Assembly (NCBI RefSeq): GCF_020510565.1
Contig: NZ_CP075189.1
Span: 3,208,501 to 3,272,500, forward strand
Direction: 5' to 3'
Length of the DNA stretch: 64,000 nt
Source of the DNA: Ferribacterium limneticum
GTDB lineage: Bacteria; Pseudomonadota; Gammaproteobacteria; Burkholderiales; Rhodocyclaceae
Position 1 is the first letter of the stretch, and every line of letters starts with the position of its first letter. A program made the position numbers and the translations under genes. Below the pieces are notes generated by a model. That model was not told the DNA's origin. It did no database searches and saw nothing but the letters and a program-made list of their open reading frames with translations. Positions 4,454 through 21,789 of this stretch are shown one piece after another.

Positions 4454-5389
4454 ATGGTGAATCTCGTCTGGATGCAAGCCGGTGCCTGCAGCGGCGAAAG
4501 CATGGCCTTGCTCTGCGCCGACCGGCCCAGCCTGGAAAACCTGCTCCAGCAATATGACCTGAACCTGCTCTGGCATCCGTCACTGACCGCCGATACGCGC
4601 TTCGGACAAGTGCTTGAGGCGATCACCAGCGGCCGCCAAAAACTCGACATCCTGTGCATCGAAGGCAGCCTGATGACCGGGCCGGACGGCAGCGGCCAGT
4701 ACGACACCTGGAAAGGCCGCGCCAAGATCGACATCATTCGCGAGCTGGCGCCGCTGGCCACCCATGTCGTGGCCATGGGCACCTGCGCCGCTTTCGGCGG
4801 CGTGCATGCTGCCGGGCCGAACCCGACCGACTGCACCGGCCTGCAATTCCTCAAAGACCAGCCGGGCGGCCTGCTCGGCGCCGACTGGCGGGCGCGCAGC
4901 GGCCAGCCCGTCATCAACGTCGCCGGCTGCCCGGCCCACCCGAACACGATGACCAAGGTGCTGGCCATGCTGGCCGAGGGCGAAGCGCTCCAGCTCGACA
5001 CCCTCAACCGGCCGGCCGCCTTCTTCGCCAGCCTCGTCCATCAGGGCTGCACACGCAACGAGTACCACGAGTACGACATCGAGGACGAAGTGCTCGGCGG
5101 CCGCGGCTGCATGTTCTTCAGCCTCGGCTGCCGCGGCCCGCAAACCCTGGCGCCGTGCAATACCGAACTGTGGAACGGCCACAGCAGCAAGACGCGGGCT
5201 GGTGTGCCCTGCTTCGGCTGCACTTCCCCCGATTTCCCGGCCAACCGCGACCTGTTCGTGACGCCCAAAATCGGCGCCGTGCCGAAATTTCTGCCGCTCG
5301 GCGTCGCCCGAGCCAAGTACATGGCCTACAAAAATCTGGCCCGCGCTGCAGCACCCGAGCGGGTCGTCAAGCGCGAGATGGAACCATGA
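4454..5389 (+). CDS. NiFe hydrogenase small subunit, signal-less sensory type
   Basis: 311 residues. The electron-transfer subunit that carries the iron-sulfur clusters. There is no twin-arginine leader, so the enzyme should be cytoplasmic, as in H2-sensing HupU/HoxB proteins. Proximal-cluster ligands are Cys12, Cys111 (MGTCAAF) and Cys159 (VAGCPAHP). The fourth expected Cys, in the CxxC of the N-terminus, is Glu15 (ACSGES). Further ligands seen are His196, Cys199, Cys219, Cys226, Cys235, Cys253 and Cys256. The start has a good AAGGAGAG site. Its stop overlaps the large-subunit start (ATGA), so the two are translationally coupled. Family membership is clear; the sensory role is inferred from context. 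Confidence 0.9.
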   Translation: MVNLVWMQAGACSGESMALLCADRPSLENLLQQYDLNLLWHPSLTADTRFGQVLEAITSGRQKLDILCIEGSLMTGPDGSGQYDTWKGRAKIDIIRELAPLATHVVAMGTCAAFGGVHAAGPNPTDCTGLQFLKDQPGGLLGADWRARSGQPVINVAGCPAHPNTMTKVLAMLAEGEALQLDTLNRPAAFFASLVHQGCTRNEYHEYDIEDEVLGGRGCMFFSLGCRGPQTLAPCNTELWNGHSSKTRAGVPCFGCTSPDFPANRDLFVTPKIGAVPKFLPLGVARAKYMAYKNLARAAAPERVVKREMEP

Positions 5390-6903
5390 CCCGCGTCACC
5401 GTCGATATCGACCTCAACCGCGTCGAGGGCGACCTCGAATTCCAGCTCGACCTTGAAGACGGCGTGGTCGTCGACGCGCGCTGCGTCGGCACGCTGTATC
5501 GCGGTTTCGAGCAGATCATGATCGGCCGGGCGCCGCGTGACGCGCTGGTCATCACGCCGCGCGTCTGCGGCATTTGCGGCACCGCCCACCTTTATGCGGC
5601 TACGCTGGCGCTGGAACAGATCGCCAACATCACGCCGCCGGCCCACGCCGTGCTCGTTCGCAACCTGTGCCTGATGGCCGAGACGCTGCAAAGCGACCTG
5701 CGCCAGAGTTTCCTGTTTTTCACGCCGGATTTCTGCAACCCGCTCTACGCTGGCCACCCGCTGGCGGCTGAACTGACCGAGGCTTTCGCCCCGCTCAAGG
5801 GCAGCGTCGTGCGCGGCTGCCTGAAGAGCACGCGCGAAATGATCGGCATCGTCGCCATCTTCGGCGGCCAGTGGCCGCACTCGACCTACATGCTGCCCGG
5901 CGGCATCACCCAGCCGGCCAATGCCCGCCGGCTGATGGATACGCGCGACATTCTGGCCAGCGTGCGCGCGTGGTTCGAGCAGGCCGTAATCGGCGGCGAC
6001 CTCGACGAATGGCTGGCGCTTGATTCCGGCGAAGCGCTGTTCCGCTGGATGGCCGCCAGCCCGGCGCGGCAGCGCAGCGCCCTCGGCCTGTTCAACCGTT
6101 TCGGCCGCGACATCGGCCTGCACAAGCTCGGCGCCGGCACTGGCCACCTGCTAAGCTACGGCGTCAATCATCGGCCCGACGGCGCCGGCAGCGAATTGCC
6201 GGCCGGTTTTTTCAACGCCGACACGCAGCAGGTCGAGCCGCTCGACCACCTGCAGATCAACGAACACGTCCGCCACAGCTGGTTCCTCGATTACCCCGGC
6301 GGGCGCCACCCGTGGGCCGGCGAAACCATCCCCGATCATCAGCCGGGCAGCGACCGCTACACCTGGGCCAAGGCGCCGCGCTATGGCGACAAGGTGGTGC
6401 AGACCGGGCCGCTGGCCGAGCTGCGCATCGCCGGAGAGCCGCTCATCACCGACCTGCTGGCCAGCGAGGGTGACAACACCTGGCTGCGCCAGTTCGCCCG
6501 CCTGCGCAGGGCTGGCTGGCTGCTCAATGCTACGGTCAACACGAAAAAACAGCTAAAAATGAAATTGGACGAGCCGCATTTCATCGACCCGAAAATCGAT
6601 GTCTGGCCGGATGGCGAAAGTTATGGCCTGGTCGAGGCGGCGCGCGGTGGGCTCGGCCACTGGCTGCGCATCAAGGATGGGCTCATCGACAAATACCAGA
6701 TCGTCACGCCGACCGCCTGGAACGCCTCGCCGCGCGACAGCGCCGGCTGCCACGGCCACTGGGAACAGAGCATCATCGGCCTGCCGGTAGCAGACCCGGA
6801 AAATCCGGTGGAGATCGGCCACATCGTCCGCTCCCACGACCCGTGCCTGGTGTGCACCGTGCATTTCATCGGCAGCCACAAAAAAACGCATTTCAATGTC
6901 TGA
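5386..6903 (+). CDS. NiFe hydrogenase large subunit
   Basis: 505 residues, starting inside the small-subunit stop codon. It holds the Ni-Fe(CN)2CO active site. The ligand motifs are RVCGICGTAH (Cys61, Cys64) and DPCLVCTVH (Cys487, Cys490). Twelve residues follow His493 (FIGSHKKTHFNV). In enzymes that need a maturation protease a tail is removed after this His; HoxC-type H2 sensors are known for lacking it. Residues about 382-393 come from a copy of the dispersed repeat (LNATVNTKKQLK), inserted in or replacing a linker before the conserved GLVEAARGGLGHWL block. The downstream protease-kinase gene overlaps by 8 nt. Confidence 0.92.
   Translation: MTRVTVDIDLNRVEGDLEFQLDLEDGVVVDARCVGTLYRGFEQIMIGRAPRDALVITPRVCGICGTAHLYAATLALEQIANITPPAHAVLVRNLCLMAETLQSDLRQSFLFFTPDFCNPLYAGHPLAAELTEAFAPLKGSVVRGCLKSTREMIGIVAIFGGQWPHSTYMLPGGITQPANARRLMDTRDILASVRAWFEQAVIGGDLDEWLALDSGEALFRWMAASPARQRSALGLFNRFGRDIGLHKLGAGTGHLLSYGVNHRPDGAGSELPAGFFNADTQQVEPLDHLQINEHVRHSWFLDYPGGRHPWAGETIPDHQPGSDRYTWAKAPRYGDKVVQTGPLAELRIAGEPLITDLLASEGDNTWLRQFARLRRAGWLLNATVNTKKQLKMKLDEPHFIDPKIDVWPDGESYGLVEAARGGLGHWLRIKDGLIDKYQIVTPTAWNASPRDSAGCHGHWEQSIIGLPVADPENPVEIGHIVRSHDPCLVCTVHFIGSHKKTHFNV
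6530..6567 (+). repeat. Dispersed repeat, copy 2, inside the hydrogenase large-subunit gene
   Basis: TACGGTCAACACGAAAAAAC followed by AGCTAAAAATGAAATT. Read in frame as ATVNTKKQLKMK on the coding strand. Confidence 0.8.
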
Positions 6904-9900
6904 AAGCATGCGCATCCTCTGCTTCGGCAACCCGCTGCATGGCGACGACGGCTTCGGCCCGGCCGTCAGCCTGGCGCTCAAGCGGGTCAAGCTGCCACCG
7001 GAGGTCAGGGTCATCGATTGCGGCACGCGCGGGCTGGATGCCCTGCACCTGTTTGAAGACTGCGGCCACGTAGTCATCGTAGACGCCATGGCCGGAGCCA
7101 ATCCCGGCAAGCTGCGCCTCCTGAATGCCCGCAACGTACCAGTCGAAAACGCTGGCAGCGGCGGCCATGGCGCTGGCGTCGGCTACTTGCTGGCGGCTGT
7201 CCGCGAGATGATTGCGAAGCCACCGGTGATTGAGGTCATTGCCGTCGAGATCGGCCCGGTTAAAACCTTTTCGCCCGGCCTGTCGCTGGAAGTTGCCGCG
7301 GCCGTCGCCGAAGCCACCGATGTCATTCGCCTTTGCCAGGCACCCGCGGCATTTGGCCAGAACTGCGAATTGGCAGACGAACTGGACAGTTTGCGCCAGG
7401 CCAATCTGGCGCTGGAAAGCGAGCTGATCAAAAGCACCGAAGCGCTCGAACTGCTCATCGCCGAACAGGAAAGACAGCAGGACGAACTGCAGCTTCGCTC
7501 GCAGGAACTGGCCCAGCTGCACGGCGCGCTGGAGCGGGCCATCGGCACCATGGCCGAAATTTTCGTCATGCTCGGCCCGGACGGCCGGGTCATCCGCGCC
7601 AACAGCCTGCTCACCAAGGAACTGGGCTACGCGTCGGACGCCCTGGTCGGCCACTATTTCGAAGACTGCCTGCCCGAACCCGGCCGCCAGCAGTTGCGCC
7701 GGATGCTGCCGGCCAATCGCGGCACGCCGCTGCTGCTCAACGCCATTCGCGCCGCCGGCGGGCGCTTTGAAGCCGAACTCAATTTCCGCCGAGCCGAGAC
7801 GCCGGCCGATGACAAAAACGAGACGCTGCCCTATCTCGTCCACGCCAGCCTGATCCACAGCCAGGCCGGCAAACTGGAGGGCGCCGTCGTCGTCGCAAGC
7901 AATATCGCCGTGCTCAAGGACCGCGAAAAGGCCCTGCGCGACAACGAGCGCCTGCTCCACGAAACAGCCCAAGACCTGCGCGATCACCGCGACAATCTGA
8001 CGGCGATGGTCAATGAGCAAACGCACGATCTGCGTACGGCCAAGGAACAAGCCGAGCAGGCCAGCCAGGCCAAGAGCAATTTCCTGTCAAACATGTCGCA
8101 CGAGGTGCGGACACCGCTCACCGCCATCCTCGGTCTTTCCGACCTGTGCCTGCGCACGCCGCTCAACGTCCAGCAGGGACAGTATCTGGCCAAGATTCGC
8201 CTGGCCGCCCACCACCTGCTCGGCATCATCAACGACATCCTCGACTTTTCGCGCATCGAGGCCGGCAAGCTGGACATCGAGCAGGTGCCTTTCGAACTGC
8301 CCGCCCTGATCGACGAAATCACCGACCTGCTCATCGAGCGCATCGAAGAAAAGGGGCTGGAACTCTGCGTCGATATCGGGCCCGAGGTGCCCGGCAGTTT
8401 CGTCGGCGATCCGCTGCGACTCAAGCAGGTCATCATCAACCTGCTCGGCAACGCCATCAAGTTTTCGGAAAAAGGCACCCTGCGCCTCGAATGCCGGCTT
8501 GAGTCCGGCGACGATGCGCTGTCCCGGCTCCGTTTTTCGGTCGGCGACGAAGGCATCGGCATTTCGCCGGCCGAGCAGGACATCCTGTTTTCCGCCTTCA
8601 GTCAGGCCGATACCTCGACAACCCGGCGCTACGGCGGTTCCGGCCTCGGCCTGGTCATATCCCGCCGCCTCGTCGAACTGATGAACGGCCGCATCTGGCT
8701 GGACAGCGAACCCGGGCGCGGCAGCACCTTCCACTTCACAGCCAGCCTTCAGAGCGTGCCGAACGCCCCGCAGCCGGCGGCCGAACTCGCCACGCGCCTG
8801 GCCGCCCACGCCGGGCGCACAGTGCTGATCGTCGACGACAACCCGCTGCTGGCCGAAACGCTGGGCAAACAGGTACTGCAACTGGGCTTGCAGGCAGAAA
8901 CCTGCGCCAGCGGTCAAGCCGCGCTGAGCCAATTGAGCGAACCATCAGCCGATTACCTGGCAGTGCTGATCGATTGGCAGCTGCCTTCCGGCATGAGCGG
9001 CGTCGAAACCATCACGGCCATCCGCCAGACCATCGGCCCGCAGGCGCCGGCCCTGATCCTCCTGGCACCGCACAACAGCGCCACGCTGCCCTTCATGGAA
9101 AACCACGTGGCCGACGCCGTGCTGCACAAGCCAGCCAGCCTCCGGAGCCTTTATTCAGCGCTGGCCGTGCCGCTGCACTTGCCGGCGCTCCCGGTGTTGC
9201 CCCCGGCGAACGGCCTGCCCGACATTGCCAGCGTCCCCCACCTGCGCGGCGCCGACATCCTCGTCGTCGACGACGTAGACCTCAACCGCGATCTCATGCA
9301 GGAACTGCTCGGCATGGCCGGCCTCAAGATCCGCCTGGCCTGCGACGGCAAGCAGGCCATCGCTGCCATTCGCCAGAAACGCCCGGACCTCGTCCTGATG
9401 GATTGCCAGATGCCGATCATGGACGGCTTCACCGCCACCCGCCTGTTGCGCGCCGAGCCGGAATACGCCGACCTGCCGATCATCGCCCTGACCGCCGGCG
9501 CCCTCGAACACGACCGCCTGCAGTGCATGGAGGCCGGCATGAGCGCCCGCGTTACCAAGCCGGTCGATCTCGACAAGCTGCTGCACCTGATCAGCGATTT
9601 GCTCCAGCCCGGGATGAATGCCGCCATCCCCGTCACGCCGAGGGCGGAACCGACGCTGGAACCCGCCTGGATGCTCGACCTGCCGGGCATCGACATCGAA
9701 AACGGCCTAAAACTGATGGGCAACAAGGTCAATTTTTATCGGAGCATGCTGATCAAATTCCGCGACAGCCATGGCATCCGCTTCGAAACGAACCTGCGCA
9801 CCGCCCTTGGCAAAAACCAGCAGGTCGACGCGCTACGTCTGGCCCATACGCTCAAAGGCATCGCCCGCAATCTGGGCATGGAACACCTGGGCAATCTCGC

Positions 9901-10018
9901 CGCGACGGTCGAGGCCGAACTGAAGGAGCCGACAAGCGACCGGCTGCCGTCCATGCTCGAGCCCTTGTTCGCCGAAACAGCCCGAATTGCGAGCTTGCTG
10001 CAGAAACTGGGGCAATAA
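6896..10018 (+). CDS. Hydrogenase maturation protease fused to PAS hybrid histidine kinase (REC-REC-HPt)
   Basis: 1040 residues. Residues 1-155 are a HybD/HoxW-type nickel-dependent endopeptidase: FGNPLHGDDGFGP near 10-22, VIVDAMAG near 61-68, and SGGHGAGVGY near 88-97, matching the three metal ligands of the family. A coiled coil follows (165-215), then a PAS domain (220-340), a second coiled coil, HisKA with His402 in NMSHEVRTPL, and HATPase with DEGIGI and GGSGLGL. REC1 has Asp near 691 (LIDWQLP). REC2 has Asp near 836 (LMDCQMP). The HPt has His984 (AHTLKG). All phosphorelay residues are present. Overlap with the hydrogenase suggests H2 sensing. The final response regulator is not encoded here. 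Confidence 0.93.
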   Translation: MSESMRILCFGNPLHGDDGFGPAVSLALKRVKLPPEVRVIDCGTRGLDALHLFEDCGHVVIVDAMAGANPGKLRLLNARNVPVENAGSGGHGAGVGYLLAAVREMIAKPPVIEVIAVEIGPVKTFSPGLSLEVAAAVAEATDVIRLCQAPAAFGQNCELADELDSLRQANLALESELIKSTEALELLIAEQERQQDELQLRSQELAQLHGALERAIGTMAEIFVMLGPDGRVIRANSLLTKELGYASDALVGHYFEDCLPEPGRQQLRRMLPANRGTPLLLNAIRAAGGRFEAELNFRRAETPADDKNETLPYLVHASLIHSQAGKLEGAVVVASNIAVLKDREKALRDNERLLHETAQDLRDHRDNLTAMVNEQTHDLRTAKEQAEQASQAKSNFLSNMSHEVRTPLTAILGLSDLCLRTPLNVQQGQYLAKIRLAAHHLLGIINDILDFSRIEAGKLDIEQVPFELPALIDEITDLLIERIEEKGLELCVDIGPEVPGSFVGDPLRLKQVIINLLGNAIKFSEKGTLRLECRLESGDDALSRLRFSVGDEGIGISPAEQDILFSAFSQADTSTTRRYGGSGLGLVISRRLVELMNGRIWLDSEPGRGSTFHFTASLQSVPNAPQPAAELATRLAAHAGRTVLIVDDNPLLAETLGKQVLQLGLQAETCASGQAALSQLSEPSADYLAVLIDWQLPSGMSGVETITAIRQTIGPQAPALILLAPHNSATLPFMENHVADAVLHKPASLRSLYSALAVPLHLPALPVLPPANGLPDIASVPHLRGADILVVDDVDLNRDLMQELLGMAGLKIRLACDGKQAIAAIRQKRPDLVLMDCQMPIMDGFTATRLLRAEPEYADLPIIALTAGALEHDRLQCMEAGMSARVTKPVDLDKLLHLISDLLQPGMNAAIPVTPRAEPTLEPAWMLDLPGIDIENGLKLMGNKVNFYRSMLIKFRDSHGIRFETNLRTALGKNQQVDALRLAHTLKGIARNLGMEHLGNLAATVEAELKEPTSDRLPSMLEPLFAETARIASLLQKLGQ

Positions 10019-10055
10019 GCGACGCAGGCCATGATTCCGGCGCTTGGCCATGTTT

Positions 10056-10093
10056 GCCACGGTCAACCGGAAAAAACGGCCAAAATTGAAATG
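10056..10093 (+). repeat. Dispersed repeat, copy 3
   Basis: CCACGGTCAACCGGAAAAAA then CGGCCAAAATTGAAATG. This is close to the consensus. It lies between the convergent kinase and eutC genes. Confidence 0.9.
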
Positions 10094-10127
10094 GCTGGCG
10101 CGCCGGCCACCTCGCCTGCTTCCTGCC

Positions 10128-10913
10128 TCAGCGCTCGGCTTTCAGGCATGGCGAAAACACCGGCTCCGCAGGCAGCGCCTGGGTTTCGCTGTCATCCTTC
10201 AAACCGATGCCGGTCAATTGCCGAGCCAGGGCGGCACGAATCAGCCAGGCCAGCTTGACTGAAGCGGCGGCCGGTGTCAGCCCGGCCGGGCGGATGTTGG
10301 AAAGGCAATTGCGCTCGGCATCGAGCCGGCCGATCTTCGGCGCGAAAGTCAGGTAGGCGCCGAGGCTATCCGGCGATGAAAGGCCCGGTCGCTCGCCCAG
10401 GATGACGAGGACCAGCCGAGCCCGCAGCACAGCGCCAACTTCGTCACCGAGCGCCACCCGGCCCTGGCGGGCGATGACCGGCGGCGCGATACGCAAGCCG
10501 TCGAGCAGGGGCAGCAGGGCGCCCAGCAGCGGCAAGGCGTTCTCATGTACGGCGGTTGCCGAGAGCCCGTCGGCGATCACGATGGCCACATCGGGCACCT
10601 CGGGGAGGCACTGGGCGAGAAGCATCGCGGCGCTGGCCTCGTCGAGACTGCGGCCGAGGTCGGGGCGTTGCAGATAGGTGTGGCGGTTGATGGCCCGGCT
10701 ATGGACAACGAGCGGTTCTGCCCCGCCCATCTGGCGCCAGCGGGTAACCAGCCCGTCGACATCAAGCGCCTGATGCACGGCGTCGCGGGCCAGGGCATGG
10801 GCGACATCGAAACTGAGCACGGCGGCGGTCGGCAGGCTGTTGCCGGCACGGCCCAGGGCGATGCGGGCAGCGGTCAGCGTCGCCAGCGCTTGCCAGGGGT
10901 CCGGACGGCTCAT
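10128..10913 (-). CDS. eutC: Ethanolamine ammonia-lyase light chain
   Basis: 261 residues, slightly shorter than the enterobacterial protein. With EutB it forms the adenosylcobalamin-dependent lyase that converts ethanolamine to acetaldehyde and ammonia. Recognisable stretches are SRAINRHTYLQRPDLGR, VIADGLSA and LGERPGLSSPDSLGAY, followed by the C-terminal CLSNIRPAGL. It overlaps the end of eutB by 4 nt (ATGA), so it is cotranslated. No microcompartment, EutA reactivase or ethanolamine transporter gene is adjacent, which fits a simple nitrogen-scavenging use. Confidence 0.93.
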   Translation of the reverse strand: MSRPDPWQALATLTAARIALGRAGNSLPTAAVLSFDVAHALARDAVHQALDVDGLVTRWRQMGGAEPLVVHSRAINRHTYLQRPDLGRSLDEASAAMLLAQCLPEVPDVAIVIADGLSATAVHENALPLLGALLPLLDGLRIAPPVIARQGRVALGDEVGAVLRARLVLVILGERPGLSSPDSLGAYLTFAPKIGRLDAERNCLSNIRPAGLTPAAASVKLAWLIRAALARQLTGIGLKDDSETQALPAEPVFSPCLKAER

Positions 10914-12298
10914 GGCAGGCGCCGCCGCAGGTCGGCCAGCAGTCGATGATCGGGACTGGCTGGCAGCAGGCGCCCGGCCCCGTCGGTCAAACCCATGCTC
11001 GCCAGCCAGGCTTCGAATTCCGGCGCCCGCTGCAAACCGAGCGCCTGACGGACGAACAGCTGGTCGTGGAAGGAGGTGCTCTGGTAATTGAGCATGATGT
11101 CGTCGGCCCCCGGCACGCCCATGATGAAATTGACCCCGGCCGTACCGAGCAGCACGAGCAGGTTGTCGATGTCGTCCTGATCGGCCTCGGCGTGGTTGGT
11201 GTAGCAGATGTCGCAGCCCATCGGCAGCCCGAGCAGCTTGCCGCAGAAATGGTCTTCCAGCCCGGCGCGGATGATCTGCTTGCCGTCGTAGAGGTATTCA
11301 GGGCCGATGAAACCGACCACGGTATTGACCAGCAACGGCTTGAAATGCCGGGCCACGGCGTAAGCGCGGGCCTCGCAGGTCTGCTGGTCGACGCCGTGGT
11401 GGGCGTTGGCCGACAGGGCGCTGCCCTGCCCGGTTTCGAAATACATGACGTTGTCGCCGACCGTTCCGCGCTTGAGCGACAAGGCCGCCTCGCGCGCCTC
11501 CTGTAGCAGGGCCAGATTGATGCCGAAGCCGGCATTGGCCGCCTCGGTGCCGGCGATGGACTGGAAGACCAGATCGACCGGCAGTCCCGCCTCGATGGCG
11601 CGGATCTGGCTGCTGACATGGGTCAGCACGCAGGATTGCGTCGGAATCTGGAAACGGCCGATCAGTTCGTCGAGCATGCGCCACAAGCTGGCCAGCGCCG
11701 GCAGGCTGTCCGAAGCCGGGTTGATGCCGATCACCGCGTCGCCGACGCCGTACATCAGGCCGTCGAGCATCGAAGCGGCAATGCCGCTGGCGTCGTCGGT
11801 CGGATGATTCGGCTGCAGGCGCACAGCTAGCCGGCCGGGCAGGCCGATGGTGTCGCGGAAGGCGGTGACGACCCGGCACTTGCGGGCCACCGCGATGAGA
11901 TCCTGATTGCGCATCAGCTTGCTGACGGCAGCAGCCATCTCCGGCGTGATGCCGGGCGCCAGCGCGGCCAGTTCGGCTTCCCCCGTCGTCTCGTCGAGCA
12001 GCCATTCGCGGAATTCGCCCACCGTCAGCGACGCGACCGGCGCGAAGGCCGCGGCGTCGTGACTATCGACGATCAGCCGGGTGACTTCGTCGATTTCGTA
12101 GGGGATCAGCGCCGCGTCGAGAAAGCAGCGCAAGGGCAGATCGGCCAGCACCAGCCGGGCTGCCATCCGCTCGGCCGCACTCTGCGCGGCAATGCCGGCC
12201 AGCGCGTCGCCGGAACGGGCCGGGCTGGCCTTGGCCATTACCTCGCGCAGATCGGCGAAGCGATAACCTTGCGAACCGACGCTGGCCCGATAGTTCAT
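10910..12298 (-). CDS. eutB: Ethanolamine ammonia-lyase heavy chain
   Basis: 462 residues from the Met that begins MNYRASVGSQGY, which aligns with the known EutB N-terminus. An upstream in-frame extension would run into yaaA, so it is not used. EutB is the catalytic TIM-barrel chain that binds substrate and adenosylcobalamin. Visible conserved blocks are AKASPARSGD, VIGINPASDS, ALSANAHHGVDQQTCEARAY and MGCDICYTNHAEAD. The start lies 1 nt after the yaaA stop codon, so yaaA-eutB-eutC probably form one transcript. Confidence 0.94.
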   Translation of the reverse strand: MNYRASVGSQGYRFADLREVMAKASPARSGDALAGIAAQSAAERMAARLVLADLPLRCFLDAALIPYEIDEVTRLIVDSHDAAAFAPVASLTVGEFREWLLDETTGEAELAALAPGITPEMAAAVSKLMRNQDLIAVARKCRVVTAFRDTIGLPGRLAVRLQPNHPTDDASGIAASMLDGLMYGVGDAVIGINPASDSLPALASLWRMLDELIGRFQIPTQSCVLTHVSSQIRAIEAGLPVDLVFQSIAGTEAANAGFGINLALLQEAREAALSLKRGTVGDNVMYFETGQGSALSANAHHGVDQQTCEARAYAVARHFKPLLVNTVVGFIGPEYLYDGKQIIRAGLEDHFCGKLLGLPMGCDICYTNHAEADQDDIDNLLVLLGTAGVNFIMGVPGADDIMLNYQSTSFHDQLFVRQALGLQRAPEFEAWLASMGLTDGAGRLLPASPDHRLLADLRRRLP

Positions 12299-12299
12299 G

Positions 12300-13070
12300 T
12301 CATTGACGCCGGCGGAACACCCAGCTCTTGTCGTCGGATGCTTCGGGCGCGAAAGCGTAGCCGTCGCTATCAAAATCCTTGAGCCCTTCCGGCTCGCTCA
12401 GCCGGTTCAACACGGCGTAGCGCGTCATCAAGCCGCGCGCACGCTTGGCGTAGAAGCTGATGATCTTGTACTTACCGTTCTTCCAGTCCTCGAACACCGG
12501 CTGGATCACCGTGCCGTTGATCTTGCGGCCGACGGCGGCCTTGAAATACTCCTCGGAAGCGAGGTTGACCGCGACCGGTCGCGGCATGTCGGCCAACTCG
12601 GCATTGATCGCCTCGAGCAGACGCTCGCCCCAGTAGGCGTAGAGATCCTTGCCGGCCTTGTTGGCGAACTTGGTGCCCATTTCCAGCCGGTAGGGCTGCA
12701 TGAGGTCGAGCGGCTTGAGGATGCCGTAGAGTCCGGACAGGATGCGCACGCGCTGCTGGGCGAAGTCGAGATCCTCGGCGCCCAGCGTTTTCGCCGCCAG
12801 GCCATCGTAAACATCGCCGTCGAAGGCGAGCACTGCCTGCTTGGCGTTTTCCGGCGTGAAGGGCAGCGACCAGTCGGCGTAGCGGTTGAAATTGAGCAAC
12901 GCCAGCGGATCGGAGAGGTCCATCAAATTGGCGATATCGGCCGGCGACAATTTGCGCAGCTTTTTGATCAAGGCTTCCGAGTGCTTCAGGTAAGCCGGCT
13001 GCGTGTGCGTGGCGACGTGCGGCGGGGTCTTGTAATCAAGCGATTTGGCGGGGGACAGGAAAATCAGCAT
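12300..13070 (-). CDS. yaaA: YaaA family peroxide stress protein (UPF0246)
   Basis: 256 residues, the full family length. It opens with [12 protein letters not shown] and contains [19 protein letters not shown], INLASxEYFKA-like and [13 protein letters not shown] segments. In E. coli the homologue lowers intracellular iron damage under peroxide stress and binds DNA. It is the first gene of a probable yaaA-eutBC transcript. Confidence 0.93.
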
Positions 13071-14925: not shown

Positions 14926-16098
14926 ATGAAACGCACCCGCTTTGGCTCTCGCGACCGTCTTTCCCGCGACGCGGCCGAACTGCAACGTCTGGCCACTGGC
15001 CTTTCCGAATCCGGCGGCAAGCTGGAAGACGCCTACTGGGAAGCGCAACTCGCCGAAGTCGTCGACAGCCTGCTCAAAAACGGTGACGAGGATGACATCA
15101 ACACCGCGCTCGACCGCCTGTTCGAGGCCAACCCGCGCGCCCACGACGAACTGGCCGACATGATCGAGTCGCGGGCCGAAACCAACCGCGTCGAAGTCCA
15201 GGGTCAGGCATACGACATCCAGCTCTTCGCCGCGCCCGTCCTTGCCTGGTCACGCTTTTCCATCCCCGCCAGCCCGCTCCCCAAGAGCACGCTGCAGGCC
15301 CTGCACGTGCATCTCGGCGCCCATGTCTTTGGCGGCGACGCGCGTATTGCGCTGGCCGACTTCCTGTTCAGCCCGGACCAGTTGCCGCGCAGCTTCTGCG
15401 AAACCTGGCAACTGACCAAACAACTTGGCGAAGCTGCGCTGGCCGGCAACCATCTGACCGTCGACAGCGCCAGCATGGCCGAAACCAACCGTTTCCTCTC
15501 CGACGTCCGCTACATCGTCGGTACCGTCGCCGTGCCGCGCGGCAAGCCGCTGTTCCGCTGGAACGAAAAGGACGGCAACAAGGAAACGGCGCTCAAGGAA
15601 TGGATCAAGCAGGGCAGCCCGAATATTGAACCGCTGCTCACCGGCTGCGCCTGGCAACCACTGCTGCCGGACTCCTATCACGCCTCCTGCCGCAACGCCG
15701 ACCGCCTGTCGCGGCCGTATTCGCTCAAGGCCTCCGTCGCCTTCCTGCAAAGCATGCTCGCCCTCATGCCGGCCGACATCCGCGCCGTCGTCGGTCCCTG
15801 CTACGACCGCCGCATGGAGGAATACCGCGTCGGCCTCGGCCCGACGACCGGTGACGAGGTCTATCACGGCATCGTCTGGCCGCTGCTCGGCGCCGAAGAC
15901 GAAGCAACCGATGCGGCCGGCGAAATTGAAGCCGTGCTGCGTGAAGCCGGCGTCAAGGACGTGCTCTTCCTCGACCATCACTTCCCGATGGAATTCTGCG
16001 ACGACTGCGGCGCCCCGCTCTTCCCCAACCGCGAAGCCGAACTGGTGCACGCCGAAATGCCGGAACAACCGGCGGCGACGTCACAAGTCCTGCATTGA
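14926..16098 (+). CDS. DUF2863 family protein
   Basis: 390 residues, resembling the DUF2863 family found mainly in betaproteobacteria. Function unknown. The N-terminus is polar (MKRTRFGSRDRLSRDAAELQRLA), there is no signal peptide or membrane segment, and an FCDDCGAPLFPN stretch near the C-terminus holds three Cys that may bind metal. The stop overlaps the bioA start (TGATG). Confidence 0.85.
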   Translation: MKRTRFGSRDRLSRDAAELQRLATGLSESGGKLEDAYWEAQLAEVVDSLLKNGDEDDINTALDRLFEANPRAHDELADMIESRAETNRVEVQGQAYDIQLFAAPVLAWSRFSIPASPLPKSTLQALHVHLGAHVFGGDARIALADFLFSPDQLPRSFCETWQLTKQLGEAALAGNHLTVDSASMAETNRFLSDVRYIVGTVAVPRGKPLFRWNEKDGNKETALKEWIKQGSPNIEPLLTGCAWQPLLPDSYHASCRNADRLSRPYSLKASVAFLQSMLALMPADIRAVVGPCYDRRMEEYRVGLGPTTGDEVYHGIVWPLLGAEDEATDAAGEIEAVLREAGVKDVLFLDHHFPMEFCDDCGAPLFPNREAELVHAEMPEQPAATSQVLH

Positions 16099-17444
16099 TG
16101 GCCAAGCCGTCGAACGCCGACTGGCTGGCCCGTAGCCAGTCGGCCGTCTGGCACCCGTGCACGCAGATGCAGCACCACGCGCAGACCGGCACGCCCGGCC
16201 ACCTGCCGCTGGTGCCCATCGCCCGTGGTCAGGGCGCCTGGCTTTACGACTTCGACGACAAGCGCTACCTCGACGGCATCAGTTCGTGGTGGACCAACCT
16301 GTTCGGCCACGCCAACCCGCGCATCAATGCGGCGCTGCGCGACCAGCTCGAAACGCTCGAACACGTCATGCTGGCCGGCTTCACGCACCAGCCGGTGGTC
16401 GAGCTTTCCGAGCGTTTATCGGCGTTGACCGGCGGCGCCCTCGGCCACGCCTTCTACGCCTCGGACGGCGCCTCGGCCACCGAAATCGCGCTCAAGATGA
16501 GCTTTCACTACTGGCGCAATATCGGTCGGCCGGAGAAGGCTGAATTCCTCTGCCTGCAAGGCAGTTACCACGGCGAAACGGTCGGCGCCCTGGCCGTCAC
16601 CGATGTCGCCATTTTCAAGGATGCCTACGCGCCGCTCGTCCGCGCCGCCACCGTCATCCCATCGCCCGACTTCCGCCAGGCCGAAGCCGGCGAATCACCG
16701 GCCGACGTCGCCCGCCGCGCCGCCGCCGCATTGGAAACCCACCTCGAGAAGCATGGCGAAAACATCGCCGCCCTGATCGTCGAACCGCTCGTCCAGGGCG
16801 CTGCCGGCATGGCGATGTACGACCCCGAATACCTGCGCCTCGCCCGCCAACTGTGCGATCGCTACGAAGTACACCTGATCTGCGACGAAATCGCCGTCGG
16901 CTGCGGCCGCACCGGCACCTTCTTCGCCCACGAACAGGCTGAAATCCGGCCCGACCTGATGTGCCTGTCAAAAGGCATCTCCGGCGGCTACCTGCCGCTC
17001 TCCATCGTCCTGTCCAGCGACACCATCTACAACGCCTTCCTCGACGATTCAGTGACCCGCGCCTTCCTCCACTCCCATTCCTACACCGGCAACCCGCTGG
17101 CCTGCCGCGCCGCGCTCGCCACGCTCGATATTTTCCTGTCCGACGACGTTCTCACGGTCAACCGGAAAAAAGCGCAAAAAATGGAATCCGCCCTCGCCCC
17201 GCAGACCGACCACCCGCAAGTCAAAAACCTGCGCCAGCGCGGCATGATCGCCGCCTTCGACGTCGAAACAGCCGACCCGCACTTCTCCCGCAAGTTCTAC
17301 CGTGCCGCGCTGGAACGCGAAGCGCTGATCCGCCCCATCGGCAACACGGTCTACCTGATGCCACCGTACATCGTCAGCGACGAGGAAATCGAGCATCTTG
17401 GAACTGCGATCAGCGGTGCATTGAACGACGCGCTAATCGAATAA
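16098..17444 (+). CDS. bioA: Adenosylmethionine-8-amino-7-oxononanoate aminotransferase
   Basis: 448 residues. A PLP enzyme that converts KAPA to DAPA in biotin synthesis, using S-adenosylmethionine as amino donor. Visible marks are WHPCTQM at the N-terminus, DGISSWWTNLFGH, YASDGASATEIALKM, the cofactor Asp in ICDEIAVGCGRTG, and the Schiff-base Lys in CLSKGISGGYLPLS. The ATG overlaps the DUF2863 stop; a TTG one codon earlier is possible. Residues about 352-363 (LTVNRKKAQKME) derive from the dispersed repeat and fall in the variable helix after the DDVL segment. Confidence 0.94.
   Translation: MAKPSNADWLARSQSAVWHPCTQMQHHAQTGTPGHLPLVPIARGQGAWLYDFDDKRYLDGISSWWTNLFGHANPRINAALRDQLETLEHVMLAGFTHQPVVELSERLSALTGGALGHAFYASDGASATEIALKMSFHYWRNIGRPEKAEFLCLQGSYHGETVGALAVTDVAIFKDAYAPLVRAATVIPSPDFRQAEAGESPADVARRAAAALETHLEKHGENIAALIVEPLVQGAAGMAMYDPEYLRLARQLCDRYEVHLICDEIAVGCGRTGTFFAHEQAEIRPDLMCLSKGISGGYLPLSIVLSSDTIYNAFLDDSVTRAFLHSHSYTGNPLACRAALATLDIFLSDDVLTVNRKKAQKMESALAPQTDHPQVKNLRQRGMIAAFDVETADPHFSRKFYRAALEREALIRPIGNTVYLMPPYIVSDEEIEHLGTAISGALNDALIE
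17152..17186 (+). repeat. Dispersed repeat, copy 4, inside bioA
   Basis: TCACGGTCAACCGGAAAAAA then GCGCAAAAAATGGAA, in frame as TVNRKKAQKME. Confidence 0.8.
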
Positions 17445-17543
17445 TCGACCAGCGCCAGATGGGTTTGTCTCAATCTGGCCAACAGCGGCCAGTCGATATG
17501 CGATATGGTTTAATGAAGGCAGGCGTTTCAGGAAACCCTTTCC

Positions 17544-17861
17544 GTGCTTTGGATCAGCGCTATCTCTTTTACAAAATATGCAGCTATTGCCTATCTCGTT
17601 CTCAGTGTTGGGGTGGGCACATACCTGTACGCCCACTCAAGAAGCTGGAAACAAGTGTTTTCTGTTCTACATCGTGAGAAAGTCGAGCGCTACAAAGGGT
17701 TGCCACGCCAGCTGACATACGCGTTAAAGGCGATACATGTTGCAAGATTTTCAGCCGCAGCTGGCGCCGCCACATTACTGCTAATAATGCTGGGCATCAA
17801 TGACAGCTCAGGGCACGAAACCGATATTGCCGACAAACCGGTGGTGTTGCATTCCCCGTAA
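17544..17861 (+). CDS. Small hypothetical membrane protein
   Basis: 105 residues from a GTG start with AGGAAA about 9 nt upstream. Two hydrophobic segments are visible (AAIAYLVLSVGVGTYLY near 12-28 and AAAGAATLLLIMLGI near 70-84) separated by a basic loop. Its base composition is more AT-rich than bioA and bioF. I do not recognise a family. It sits between bioA and the toxin-antitoxin pair and may have arrived with it. Confidence 0.5.
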   Translation: MLWISAISFTKYAAIAYLVLSVGVGTYLYAHSRSWKQVFSVLHREKVERYKGLPRQLTYALKAIHVARFSAAAGAATLLLIMLGINDSSGHETDIADKPVVLHSP

Positions 17862-17911
17862 CCCTCACCGCCATCCTTGCCAATTTTTGCCAAGCCCTCT
17901 ACGATAAACCC

Positions 17912-18151
17912 ATGAGCACGATGAACATTTCCCTGCCCGATGCGCTGAAGTCCTTCGTGGACGATCAGGTCAGTCAGCGCGGTTATGGCACAAGCAGCGA
18001 GTATGTGCGCGAGCTGATTCGCAAGGATCAGGATCGCCTGCAGTTGCGCGGCCTGTTGCTGGCTGGCGCGGCTTCGGCCCCGGCAGCACCGGCCGACGCG
18101 GCCTATTTTGCGGCTTTGCGGGCGCGCGTTGCTCAGCAAGCCGGGCGGTGA
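17912..18151 (+). CDS. ParD-like ribbon-helix-helix antitoxin
   Basis: 79 residues. The N-terminal strand and helices MNISLPDALKSFVDDQV and YGTSSEYVRELIRKDQDR are the ribbon-helix-helix DNA-binding and dimerisation unit of CC2985/ParD antitoxins. The tail wraps the toxin in known complexes. Its stop overlaps the GTG start of the toxin (GTGA). It probably autoregulates its own promoter. Confidence 0.88.
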   Translation: MSTMNISLPDALKSFVDDQVSQRGYGTSSEYVRELIRKDQDRLQLRGLLLAGAASAPAAPADAAYFAALRARVAQQAGR

Positions 18152-18477
18152 AGACGAAGCCGGTCATCCCGCGCGAGCAAGCCAATCGGGACATTGACGA
18201 AACACTGGCCTATTACCTGAACGAGGGATCGGAGAATGCGGCCCTCGGTTTCATCGATACGCTGGAACAGGCTTACGCGCACATTTCCCGCCACCCGGCC
18301 ACGGGATCGTCTCATTACGCCCACGAACTGAATTTACCCGGCCTGCGTTTCTGGCCGCTTAAACGCTATCCCCACCTCGTTTTCTACGTCGAGCACGAAA
18401 CGCATATTGACGTCTGGCGGGTTCTCAACGCCAGACGCGACATTCCCGCCTGGCTCCAGGAAAATAACGCCCCATGA
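18148..18477 (+). CDS. ParE/RelE-family toxin
   Basis: 109 residues, GTG start within the antitoxin stop. Family marks are IDETLAYYLNEGSENAAL, YAHISRHPATGS, GLRFWPLKRYPHLVFY and a C-terminal VWRVLNARRDIPAWL strand. Relatives poison DNA gyrase (ParE) or cleave mRNA at ribosomes (RelE); I cannot decide which here. Its stop codon overlaps the bioF start (ATGA), so it is translationally linked to a biotin gene, which is unusual for a toxin. Confidence 0.88.
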   Translation: MKTKPVIPREQANRDIDETLAYYLNEGSENAALGFIDTLEQAYAHISRHPATGSSHYAHELNLPGLRFWPLKRYPHLVFYVEHETHIDVWRVLNARRDIPAWLQENNAP

Positions 18478-19649
18478 CCACCTCCCCACTTGAAGACCAC
18501 CTGAACGCCGAACTCGCTGACATCGAAACAGCCGGCCTGACCCGTCGTCGCCGCGTCCTGGAAAGCTCCTGCGGGCGCATTGCCACGGTGAACGGCAAAA
18601 ATGTGCTGAATTTCGCCGCCAACGATTACCTCGGGCTGGCCGGCAATACCGAGATTGCCCGGGCGCTGGCCGATGGCGCGCTGCAATGGGGCGCCGGCAG
18701 CGGTGCCTCGCATCTGGTCAGCGGCCACCTCGCGCCGCACGAAGCGCTGGAAAAGGAAATCGCCGCCTTCACCGGCTTTCCGCGCGCCCTGACCTTCTCC
18801 ACCGGCTACCTGGCCAACCTCGCCGTGACGCCGACCCTGGCCGGGCGCGGCGACGCGGTTTTCGCCGACAAGCTCAACCACGCCTCGCTGATCGATGCCA
18901 TGCAGCAGGCCAAGGCCAACGGCGCCGAGGTCCACCGCTACGCGCACAACGATGTCGCGGCGCTCGAAAAGTTGCTGGCAGCTAGCACAGCAGCCACCAA
19001 GGTCATCGTCACTGACGCCGTGTTCAGCATGGACGGCGACCTCGCCCCGCTGCCGCTCATCTTCGCGCTGGCCGAGCGCTACGACGCCTGGCTGGTAATC
19101 GACGACGCGCACGGCTTTGGCGTTCTCGGTCGCGAAGGCAAGGGCAGCCTCGCCCATTTCAACCTGCCCGCCTCGCCGCGCATTTTGCTTATGGGCACGT
19201 TGGGCAAGGCGGCCGGTGTCGGCGGCGCCTTCGTGGCAGGTTCAGAAACCGCCATCGAATACCTGCTGCAAAAAGGCCGCAGCTACATTTTCACGACGGC
19301 CCAGCCGCCGGCTATCGCCTGCGCGCTGAGCAAGAGCCTGCAATTGATCGAAAACGGCGACGCCTTGCGCGCCAACCTAATGGCCCGCATCAGCCAGTTG
19401 CGCGACGGGCTGGCCGGCCTGCCGCTCAAATTGCTGCCGTCGCTGACCGCCATCCAGCCGCTCATCGTCGGCGAAAACGACGCCGCCGTCGCCCTCGCAA
19501 AAGCCTTGTGGGAGCGCGGCCTGTGGGTGCCAGCCATTCGCCCGCCGACAGTGCCGAAAGGCACGGCGCGCCTGCGCATTTCGGTCTCCGCCGCTCACAC
19601 CGAAGCCGATATCAACCAACTCGTCACCGCCCTCAAGGAACTGGCATGA
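18474..19649 (+). CDS. bioF: 8-amino-7-oxononanoate synthase
   Basis: 391 residues. PLP enzyme condensing pimeloyl-ACP (or -CoA) with L-alanine to give KAPA, the first ring-forming step of biotin synthesis. Marks are LNFAANDYLGLAG near residue 43, GSGASHLVSGH, VTDAVFSMDGDLAPL, VIDDAHGFGVLG and the PLP Lys in MGTLGKAAGVGG near 240. The start lies in the toxin stop codon and the stop overlaps the bioH start. Confidence 0.95.
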   Translation: MTTSPLEDHLNAELADIETAGLTRRRRVLESSCGRIATVNGKNVLNFAANDYLGLAGNTEIARALADGALQWGAGSGASHLVSGHLAPHEALEKEIAAFTGFPRALTFSTGYLANLAVTPTLAGRGDAVFADKLNHASLIDAMQQAKANGAEVHRYAHNDVAALEKLLAASTAATKVIVTDAVFSMDGDLAPLPLIFALAERYDAWLVIDDAHGFGVLGREGKGSLAHFNLPASPRILLMGTLGKAAGVGGAFVAGSETAIEYLLQKGRSYIFTTAQPPAIACALSKSLQLIENGDALRANLMARISQLRDGLAGLPLKLLPSLTAIQPLIVGENDAAVALAKALWERGLWVPAIRPPTVPKGTARLRISVSAAHTEADINQLVTALKELA

Positions 19650-20359
19650 CCGCTCCCCTCATTTTCCTGCCCGGCTGGTGCGTCGGCCGCGGCCCGCTCA
19701 ATGCTACGGTCAACCGGATAAATGGGCAGATTTTCGATTTGCCCGGCTACGGCAACGCGCCGCTGATCAGCGATTTTGATGCCGCCGCCGACGACATCGC
19801 CGCCCGCCTGCAAGCCGGCACGACGCTGGCCGGCTGGTCGCTCGGCGCGCAACTCGCGCTGGCCGTCGCCGCCCGTCATCCGGCCAAGGTCGGCAAGCTC
19901 GTGCTCGTCGCCGGCACGACTTCCTTCGTCCAGCGCGATGGCTGGCCGCACGCCATGCCGCCGGCCACCCTGGCCGAGTTCGCGGCTGGCGTCGCGGCCG
20001 ATGTCGAAGCCATGCTGCCGCGCTTCGTTGGCGGCTTCAACCGTGGCGACGCCCGCGCCAAGGCGGTCACGCTCGAACTCCTCAAACTCGCCGACCCGCG
20101 CCCGTCCGGCGAAGTCCTGGCGACCGGGCTGAACTGGCTGCGCGACATCGACCTGCGCGACCTCGCGCCGCAGGTCAAGGCGCCAACCCTGCTCATCCAC
20201 GGCGCCGCCGATCCGCTCATGCCGCTGGGCGCCGCCGAAGCCCTCGCCGCCCTGATTCCCGGCGCCAAGCTAGCCGTCTTCGACGACTGCGCCCACGCTC
20301 CCTTCATGTCCAGGCCTGACGATTTCGTCGCCACCGTGCACCAATTCCTGAATGACTAG
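19646..20359 (+). CDS. bioH: Pimeloyl-ACP methyl ester carboxylesterase
   Basis: 237 residues, starting in the bioF stop codon. Alpha/beta hydrolase that frees pimeloyl-ACP from its methyl ester after two elongation cycles. The catalytic triad is Ser65 (GWSLGAQ), Asp189 (GAADPL) and His217 (CAHAPF). Residues 20-30 (ATVNRINGQIF) come from a partly degraded copy of the dispersed repeat, lying before the DLPGYG loop; the triad is untouched. It overlaps bioC by 8 nt. Confidence 0.92.
   Translation: MTAPLIFLPGWCVGRGPLNATVNRINGQIFDLPGYGNAPLISDFDAAADDIAARLQAGTTLAGWSLGAQLALAVAARHPAKVGKLVLVAGTTSFVQRDGWPHAMPPATLAEFAAGVAADVEAMLPRFVGGFNRGDARAKAVTLELLKLADPRPSGEVLATGLNWLRDIDLRDLAPQVKAPTLLIHGAADPLMPLGAAEALAALIPGAKLAVFDDCAHAPFMSRPDDFVATVHQFLND
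19703..19736 (+). repeat. Dispersed repeat, copy 5, inside bioH (degraded 3' half)
   Basis: GCTACGGTCAACCGGATAAA then TGGGCAGATTTTCG. The 5' core is exact and the A-tracts are decayed. In frame as ATVNRINGQIF. Confidence 0.65.
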
Positions 20360-21113
20360 GCCCTCCAAGGCGCGCATCCGCGAATCCTTCGAGCGCGCCG
20401 CCCCGACCTACGACAGCGCCGCCGACATCCAGCGCCGCATCTGCACCCAGCTCGCCGAAGGCCTGCCGGCCATCGCCCCGGCCCGCCTGCTCGATGCCGG
20501 CTGCGGCACCGGTTTTGCCCAGGTCGACCTGCTCGCCCGTTTTCCCGATGCCCATGCCGTCGCCCTCGACCTCTCGCCGGCCATGCTCGACCGGGTCGCT
20601 GCGCCATGCTGCCGCATCGCCGGCGATCTCGAACACCTGCCGCTGTCAGATGCCAGCCTCGATCTTTACTGGTCCAGCCTCGCCGTCCAGTGGTGCGATC
20701 TGGCCACCGCACTGCGTGAAGCCCACCGCACGCTGCGCCCGAATGGCCTGGTCGCCCTCGCCAGCCTCGGCCCGGCCACCTTCCACGAGCTGCGCCACGC
20801 CTTCGCCGACGTCGACCACTACCGCCACACGTTGAGTTTTCACAGCCCCGAGGAAATCCGCAAAATCGCCGTCAATCTCGGCTTTGCTACGGTCAACCCG
20901 AAAAAAAGCACAAAAATCGCGCACTACCCGGACTTCAAAACCCTGCTTCGCGCCGTCAAGGCCATCGGCGCCAACCAGCTCGGCAACGGCCGGCGGACCA
21001 GTCTGATGAGCCGCGCCACCTTCCAGCGCGCCGAAGCCGCCTACGAGCAGCTGCGCACCCCGGCCGGCCTGCCGCTGACCTACGACGTGATCTATCTTTA
21101 CGCCAGCAAATGA
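20352..21113 (+). CDS. bioC: Malonyl-ACP O-methyltransferase
   Basis: 253 residues. S-adenosylmethionine methyltransferase that caps malonyl-ACP so that it can prime fatty-acid elongation towards pimelate. The SAM-binding loop is LLDAGCGTGF near residue 47. The segment after it, LDLYWSSLAVQWC, and the C-terminal LRAVKAIGANQLGNGRR are typical of BioC. Residues about 178-190 (ATVNPKKSTKIAH) derive from a copy of the dispersed repeat. The start overlaps the end of bioH; bioD follows 10 nt downstream. Confidence 0.94.
   Translation: MTRPSKARIRESFERAAPTYDSAADIQRRICTQLAEGLPAIAPARLLDAGCGTGFAQVDLLARFPDAHAVALDLSPAMLDRVAAPCCRIAGDLEHLPLSDASLDLYWSSLAVQWCDLATALREAHRTLRPNGLVALASLGPATFHELRHAFADVDHYRHTLSFHSPEEIRKIAVNLGFATVNPKKSTKIAHYPDFKTLLRAVKAIGANQLGNGRRTSLMSRATFQRAEAAYEQLRTPAGLPLTYDVIYLYASK
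20885..20920 (+). repeat. Dispersed repeat, copy 6, inside bioC
   Basis: TGCTACGGTCAACCCGAAAA then AAAGCACAAAAATCG, in frame as ATVNPKKSTKI. Confidence 0.8.
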
Positions 21114-21123
21114 GCGCCCGAAA

Positions 21124-21789
21124 ATGAGCCCCGCCTATTTCCTGACCGGCACCGACACCGAAATCGGCAAGACCTTCATCACCTGCGCCCTGCTCCACCG
21201 GGCCGGGCTGGACGGCCTCAAAGCCGTAGGACTCAAGCCCATCGCCGCCGGCACCGATGGCGCCGGGCTCAATGACGATGTCGAAGCGATCCGTGCCGCC
21301 AGCAACGTCGAACTGCCGCGCCAGATCATCAACCCCTATTGCTTCAAGCCCGCCGTCGCCCCGCACATCGCCGCGGCAGAAGCCGGCGTGAGCATCGAGT
21401 TCGGGCCAATCAGGGCGAGTTGCGACGCGGCCCGGCAGCAGGCCGATCTGGTCATCGTCGAAGGCGTCGGTGGATTTTGTGTGCCGTTAAGCGGCGAGCA
21501 GAGCACCGCCGACCTCGCCGTCAACCTCGGCTTGCCGGTCATCCTCGTCGTCGGCATGCGTCTCGGCTGCATCAACCACGCGCTGCTCACGGCCGAAGCC
21601 ATCACCGCCCGCGGCCTGAAGCTGGCTGGCTGGGTCGCCAACCGTATCGACCCGATGATGTCCCGCTTTGAAGAAAATTTGGCAACGCTGCAAACCTTGC
21701 TGCCGGCCCCCTTGCTCGGCGTCGTGCCGCACGGGCCGCAAGGCGGAGCCCATGGCGCCGCCGCCTTCCTCAAACTACCCGGCGCTTAA
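21124..21789 (+). CDS. bioD: Dethiobiotin synthetase
   Basis: 221 residues. ATP-dependent ring closure of DAPA with CO2 to dethiobiotin. The P-loop is GTDTEIGKTF at residues 8-17. The EGVGGFCVPL segment near 117 and the NRIDP segment near 177 are characteristic of the family. It is the last gene of the cluster; bioB is not in this window. Its 3' end overlaps the convergent HPt gene by 15 nt. Confidence 0.94.
   Translation: MSPAYFLTGTDTEIGKTFITCALLHRAGLDGLKAVGLKPIAAGTDGAGLNDDVEAIRAASNVELPRQIINPYCFKPAVAPHIAAAEAGVSIEFGPIRASCDAARQQADLVIVEGVGGFCVPLSGEQSTADLAVNLGLPVILVVGMRLGCINHALLTAEAITARGLKLAGWVANRIDPMMSRFEENLATLQTLLPAPLLGVVPHGPQGGAHGAAAFLKLPGA

Follow-up and report, generated by a model that had tools for sequence, protein, structure and literature searches.

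We analysed a 64,000-nucleotide stretch of the single-contig genome of Ferribacterium limneticum (NZ_CP075189.1, positions 3,208,501 to 3,272,500; hereafter the window), which contains a forward-strand operon of three genes: the small and large subunits of a [NiFe] hydrogenase and, as the third and last gene, a fusion of a hydrogenase maturation endopeptidase with a hybrid histidine kinase (HK). The small subunit (4454..5389, +; 311 amino acids; PF01058 and PF14720) begins with MVNLVWMQAGAC; no twin-arginine translocation signal was seen by eye at this N-terminus, so the hydrogenase is probably cytoplasmic. The large subunit (5386..6904, +; 505 amino acids; PF00374) ends in DPCLVCTVH followed by a 12-residue tail, FIGSHKKTHFNV. 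The fusion gene (6896..10018, +) is an open frame of 1040 amino acids encoding protease, coiled coil, PAS, HisKA, HATPase, REC, REC and HPt. As read from the sequence, the large-subunit ATG at 5386 shares 4 nucleotides with the small-subunit stop, and the fusion gene, from its ATG at 6896, runs for 9 nucleotides within the large-subunit gene, whose stop is 6902-6904. An earlier interpretation of this DNA, made without database searches (the sequence-only reading), had described protease, kinase and both subunits as encoded with overlapping codons, and the two overlaps confirm it.

All domains of the fusion protein are on the + strand. The endopeptidase domain is of the HycI/HybD type (residues 1-147, 6896..7336; PF01750 and Foldseek), with ligand positions D18, D63 and H91. 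A long helix or coiled coil of 62 residues (156-217, 7361..7546), seen in the AlphaFold2 model and additional to the domains listed by the sequence-only reading, leads from the protease to the PAS domain (residues about 218-345, 7547..7930; PF13426, with PAS_9 at 223-300). Pfam places HisKA at 392-457 and HATPase_c at 504-618 (8069..8749). Two receiver domains, in which the acceptor Asp is present, lie at 8822..9592: PF00072 (Response_reg) matches two stretches, with Pfam coordinates only for the second (788-899), and the first (643-748) was placed by motifs. The HPt domain covers residues 966-1032 (9791..9991; PF01627). The phosphorelay motifs are SNMSHEVRTPL (398-408), VLIDWQLP (690-697), VLMDCQMP (833-840) and AHTLKG (983-988, in HPt). 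Pfam and motifs together bear out the order protease-PAS-HisKA-HATPase-REC-REC-HPt that had been proposed. The full phosphorelay claimed with it holds for the window protein but not as a general trait, as the Chromatiaceae proteins of L022-L024 are HK-REC without HPt, which Pfam also confirms for L023. Hybrid kinases of the BarA/ArcB type resemble the fusion in HisKA-HATPase-REC(-REC)-HPt, and BarA is the top NCBIfam match of the kinase part, with a score of 456, far under the cut-off of 890; the fusion differs from them by the protease-coiled coil-PAS region in front, and no HAMP domain was found in it by Pfam.

The fusion is real and patchy, and spans Azonexaceae and Chromatiaceae. A length-restricted protein search with residues 1-215 (7998 candidates sharing most words were scored; lengths 0.55-1.75 x query) gave 55 database homologues, of which 54 have HK domains and one (P0055) has GGDEF-EAL. 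HycI is found by precomputed labels in 54 of the 55, and P0056 is just at the HycI cut-off (23 bits) on rescan. A scan of the genome collection, for which the best 80 of 139 relatives were kept and gene order was read for L009-L050 (L051-L090 are outside the reading), gave 17 fused loci (L011-L027), including those of Dechloromonas agitata is5, Thiorhodococcus minor, Thiorhodococcus drewsii and Imhoffiella purpurea. Protease, coiled coil and PAS are in a single frame in all 17; the kinase is found in 16 (L025 stops at the contig end) and the small subunit in 16 (L017 starts too late). The large subunit lies upstream of the fusion in 17/17, which is the synteny with NiFe genes that the sequence-only reading had proposed to look for. 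Within the genus, 17 of 76 genomes (F. limneticum included) match at 1e-30, 16 of them fused and one (G177) unfused. In the family sample of 199 genomes, 109 have some match at 0.001 and 12 are under 1e-38, two fused (G000, G112) and ten with separate proteases, of which two (G028, G194) are visible only as short stretches. In the order (399 genomes), five reach 1e-30; of these, two are fused and three unfused. The first pass scored at most 15 candidates per genome in the family sample and at most 7 in the order sample. Named loci and genome samples overlap (L031 and L163 look like one contig), so the 17 loci and the 16 genomes are not additive.

The HycI match (PF01750) covers residues 27-144 with E 2.9e-15 and 56.7 bits, above the curated cut-off of 23. 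Residues D18, D63 and H91, which we take to be nickel ligands and whose positions were assigned by homology, are invariant in 56/56 fusion proteins (the window protein and the 55 homologues) and the same in 32/32 fused and separate proteases (alignment A2); the complete protease domain with three metal-ligand segments that had been described is therefore present. The AlphaFold2 model of fusion residues 1-345 has a mean predicted local distance difference test score (pLDDT) of 83.6 and a predicted template modelling score of 0.45. In Foldseek the modelled protease matches the maturation proteases 5ttx, HybD 1cfz (root-mean-square deviation 2.4), 5zby and 2e85, and by sequence the closest solved relatives are 5ttx and HybD. 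HybD, HycI and HoxM share the fold and the ligand-position residues with the fused domain, but are free-standing small proteins, whereas here the protease is the N-terminus of a 1040-residue kinase. Nonsynonymous divergence (dN) in the protease domain is 0.09-0.20 against a synonymous divergence (dS) of 0.64-1.12 in 8/8 pairings of the window's fusion gene with its counterparts from 8 of the 17 fused scan loci. A dead protease domain is disfavoured by the invariant ligand residues and by dN well under dS. Between the window and four relatives (L012, L013, L015, L016), dS is 0.70-0.78 in the protease (6896-7336) and 0.28-0.37 in PAS and kinase (7547-8755), so recombination inside the fused gene is likely.

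Twelve residues are present beyond CTVH in 18/18 large subunits of the fused clade, whereas in Cupriavidus necator (L010) HoxC ends at CTVH, as does its orthologue in the F. limneticum genome (L002/L166). This upholds the contrast with HoxBC/HoxJ that the sequence-only reading had drawn. HoxC is described as lacking a C-terminal extension in the accessible text of PMC10073562, and sensory and Ech hydrogenases are given as the exception to tail processing in that of PMC6769069. The F. limneticum genome contains four large subunits, three with tails, and three proteases: one with a group 1-like enzyme (L167), a HoxW-like open reading frame (ORF) after a tailed HoxH-like large subunit (L165), and the fusion. 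Because three tails and three proteases pair one to one, the fusion is the natural partner of its large subunit; service by another protease of the genome is less likely, as the other two have their own hydrogenases. The fusion protease is likely to mature the large subunit of its own operon and, with that, to bring the kinase to it. PF01750 finds two domains in this genome, in the group 1 operon and in the fusion; the HoxW-like ORF (L165, 7706-8191, after HoxH) has GDD, D and H motifs by eye and is silent in Pfam PF01750, so protease counts from Pfam only can run too low.

A separate protease gene follows the large subunit in 20/20 loci of another set (L009, L028-L045 and L047; L009 is an annotated Ideonella dechloratans plasmid). 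A GGDEF-EAL protein then follows in 18, the contigs of L038 and L047 ending too soon. The tails in this set (20/20 loci) have 12 residues in 17, 13 in L009, and 16 in L040 and L043. Eight further loci of the family (L124-L130, L136) contain both subunits, the protease and, as a gene of its own, a PAS histidine kinase (split kinases); that of L127 is interrupted, with coiled coil-PAS and HK in two ORFs and an in-frame stop between. In five more distant loci (L131-L135) the protease is likewise separate, and the kinases are of other kinds. In L048 (Photobacterium sp. JCM 19050, 5504-10520), small subunit, large subunit, protease and kinase pieces are found with several broken frames, which are either draft errors or decay.

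In the large-subunit tree (61 rows, with L017, L035, L036 and L048 left out as partial or broken) the fused clade (n=18, support 100/100) is sister (97/89) to the GGDEF-EAL clade (n=18, 99/97). Beyond this pair come the split kinases (8), the distant kinases (5) and group 2a, each group forming one clade; the HoxC clade (5 rows) is separate from the fused clade (100/100), and the branching order among the deep groups is less certain, with a warning of long branches among the deepest ones. Table 1 of HydDB, in its accessible part, links group 2c, putatively sensory, to a diguanylate cyclase and group 2b to a histidine kinase; the group 2c label of the GGDEF-EAL clade rests on this description. 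Being sister to a clade that resembles group 2c, the fused clade looks like a histidine-kinase branch beside group 2c. At the HoxC-numbered positions I62 and F110, presumably the narrow gas gate of the regulatory hydrogenase, I and F are found in 18/18 fused and 8/8 split-kinase rows, and V and L in group 1; position 110 is F in 16 and Y in 2 GGDEF-EAL rows, and M in 5/5 distant-kinase rows. HoxBC-HoxJ (HupUV-HupT, HydDB 2b) is likewise a two-subunit [NiFe] hydrogenase with a PAS histidine kinase and I62/F110. HoxC, however, is tail-less, has no protease of its own and forms a separate clade, whereas the large subunit of the fused operon has both tail and protease; HoxJ is also a simple non-hybrid kinase, in contrast to the hybrid one of the fusion. 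A plain HoxBC-type sensor is ruled out by the tail and the large-subunit tree. The group 2c-like clade shares with the fused operon the tail and the gene order small subunit, large subunit, protease, output, but has a GGDEF-EAL output and a separate protease gene (except P0055) in place of a fused hybrid HK.

The coiled coil-PAS module is common to 9 fused, 8 split-kinase and 10 GGDEF-EAL sequences (alignment A3, n=27; motif LRxANxALE). The PAS query matches 15/18 GGDEF-EAL proteins and 8/8 split kinases. The A3 profile matches 3/3 HoxJ-type kinases (E 1.1e-9, 1.3e-13 and 2.5e-13; Z = 4000) at residues 13-111, 23-121 and, numbered from stop to stop, 51-203. Two of these are annotated as ATP-binding protein beside HoxBC/HupUV; the third is the orthologue from the F. 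limneticum genome, 54% identical to the Cupriavidus one and second of 46 A3-profile matches in that genome (5.2e-12). These matches are suggestive of the coiled coil-PAS as the part that reads the hydrogenase. It is the more economical reader because the outputs of unfused relatives mostly keep it and HoxJ-type kinases match its profile, and we regard it, rather than the protease, as the likeliest one, to which the protease was joined. The docking and sensing that the sequence-only reading tentatively attributed to the protease is the less economical view, given that relatives with a separate protease mostly still carry coiled coil-PAS in their outputs.

The protease was fused at least once, and probably two or three times in all. 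P0055 is a protease-PAS-GGDEF-EAL protein, from residue 150 64% identical to P0057, a GGDEF-EAL protein that begins exactly at the equivalent of that residue. P0056 has the order protease-coiled coil-PAS-PAS-HK and is, from residue 180, 87% identical over 595 columns to P0061, a database protein without genomic context; the N-terminus of P0061 is a Rieske domain (PF00355, 28.0 bits vs a cut-off of 20.3) where P0056 has the protease. In the protease tree the main fused group forms one clade (97/75), P0055 is placed, though with weak support (87/41), within the GGDEF-EAL proteases, and P0056 falls outside both groups; L046, a methanogen locus that only the protease query matched, is mislabelled GGDEF-EAL there and falls with the outgroup. 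The simplest account of P0055 is an independent fusion, and P0056 may be a third fusion or a recombinant. Both are single metagenomic sequences and could therefore be chimaeras; searches from P0055 and from P0056 gave no second protein of either make-up. P0058, from a Methylomonas metagenome-assembled genome, is 65% identical in its first 196 residues to P0055 150-345 and continues as PAS-HK-REC-HPt, so the output end has been swapped as well.

A Rieske-type C-x-H...C-x2-H motif precedes the coiled coil in 5/8 split kinases (L125-L128, L136); by eye, it is degenerate in L129 and L130 and L124 has none. Rieske-headed kinases of hydrogenase operons are thus found at L125 3869-6085 (+) and L126 3957-6518 (-), the two split kinases tested, both with a Pfam Rieske match over the cut-off; searched against solved structures, the L125 segment gets no better than E 0.03-0.06, with Rieske proteins as the matches. 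The motif is also found in two Sulfuricella GGDEF-EAL proteins (L029, L031), and Pfam does not list it for L029. In the fused clade the protease occupies the place that the Rieske head has in these relatives. According to the accessible text of PMC12319191, HucE, a protein of Rieske type, is encoded together with the group 2a hydrogenase Huc. The arrangement in the Rieske-headed relatives suggests that hydrogenase electrons may reach the output protein through that head.

With a probability of about 0.6, we consider the operon to encode a two-component system that senses H2 through a [NiFe] hydrogenase of group 2, probably cytoplasmic and akin to the putatively sensory group 2c; the maturation endopeptidase, as the first domain of the kinase, would deliver the kinase to the large subunit. 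The protease domain would bind the nickel-loaded precursor of the large subunit, cut after the His of DPCLVCTVH and free the 12-residue tail, as the intact ligands, the tail and the gene order imply. As the protease is covalently joined to coiled coil-PAS, maturation would place the kinase on the finished large subunit, so that kinase and functional sensor might assemble one to one. The coiled coil-PAS would then read the H2-activated hydrogenase as HoxJ does, judging by the similarity of the modules. Phosphate would pass from the kinase along REC-REC-HPt, whose domains and phosphorylation residues are present, to a response regulator encoded elsewhere.

Several points weigh against this system. 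H2 sensing, tail cleavage and complex formation are steps that we infer, and F. limneticum is already equipped with a HoxBC pair and an orthologue of HoxJ. No response regulator was found by Pfam in the ORFs flanking the operon on both sides. The H91-bearing loop (86-92) has a pLDDT <50 in the AlphaFold2 model. The PAS query misses L009, L030 and L042 among the GGDEF-EAL proteins and matches 0/5 distant kinases; the A3 profile covers only model positions 20-118 of 184 in two of the three HoxJ-type proteins, and its HoxJ match in the F. limneticum genome is just 4 bits above the next PAS (47.4 vs 43.3). Since the 3 rows of group 2a and that of group 3 have I62 too, this residue is not a sensor mark on its own.

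The foremost alternative, which we regard as unlikely, is that the stop between two adjacent overlapping genes was lost neutrally; the protease would cut and leave, and the tether would give only equal dosage. Protease and output genes do adjoin in the unfused relatives, and systems without the fusion survive, including one (G177) within the genus. Yet the fusion has been kept across Azonexaceae and Chromatiaceae as one clade (100/100 for large subunits, 97/75 for proteases), P0055 and P0056 also join protease and output at the corresponding point, and a conserved helix links the domains.

A sensing role for the fused protease is possible. In one version, which seems quite unlikely, the protease itself is the sensor: it would stay on or sample the large subunit, and the signal of the kinase would reflect whether this subunit is loaded with nickel or matured, and H2 by that route, instead of H2 alone. 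The fusion does set a nickel-dependent protease directly on the signalling helix, and the P0056 protease fills the place of the P0061 Rieske domain, a possible input position; coiled coil-PAS, however, seems enough as input in the unfused relatives. This version, neutral loss of the stop and the delivery of the kinase by the protease overlap in part as explanations. The chaperone HybG fails to bind HybC that has been processed, according to the accessible text of PMC6769069. More speculatively, and also unlikely, the protease could be a working input module that engages the nickel-loaded large subunit and signals through the coiled coil, gating on sensor maturation (nickel, cofactor, assembly) plus H2. 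In that case the coiled coil-PAS would be a shared reader of the hydrogenase on which protease and Rieske domain can replace each other as input heads. If so, the Rieske head would take hydrogenase electrons (cf. HucE beside Huc) and the protease head would read the active site.

That the hydrogenase is an energy or redox enzyme, with the kinase answering another cue such as redox or O2 through PAS, appears very unlikely. Its nearest solved relatives by sequence are 7uus/7utd ('Hydrogenase-2'), which we take to be the uptake enzyme Huc. A processed tail is, moreover, typical of standard, non-sensory hydrogenases in the accessible parts of PMC10073562 and PMC6769069. On the other side, apart from the output the operon contains no more than the two hydrogenase subunits, the sister groups have signalling genes next in line (HK or GGDEF-EAL), and the gate residues are HoxC-like. 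The chance that a frameshift or assembly error joined two genes, or that no other genome has the fusion, the two doubts raised by the sequence-only reading itself, is negligible, with no observation in its favour, given 16/76 genus genomes, 17/17 loci (L011-L027), 55 database proteins and a single-contig genome.

H2-sensing hydrogenases and group 2c are already known, and the fused operon is a variant of [NiFe] H2-sensing systems. Among the papers listed by full-text literature searches, none deals with the fusion or with hydrogenase kinases bearing a Rieske head; most subscription papers are beyond their reach, so absence from print is not established. Clades of putative sensors with tails depart from the sensory-hydrogenase exception to tail processing, as stated in the accessible text of PMC6769069. 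These clades keep the protease in the operon, and in one lineage it is built into the kinase. The fusion may thereby tie the building of a sensor to its wiring, and it offers a natural one-chain tool for the coupling of hydrogenase maturation to sensor assembly, useful also for asking how electrons or conformation go from an H2 sensor to a kinase. The Rieske-headed sister kinases render the electron-transfer model directly testable.

Concerning the neighbouring genes, eutC and eutB (ethanolamine ammonia-lyase; 10128-12373, -) converge on the end of the fusion gene. Further along the window, at 16095-21789, there is what we take to be a biotin synthesis cluster, with bioA-, bioF-, bioH-, bioC- and bioD-like ORFs, and a small, presumably ParE-like ORF (18148-18477) sits between bioA and bioF.

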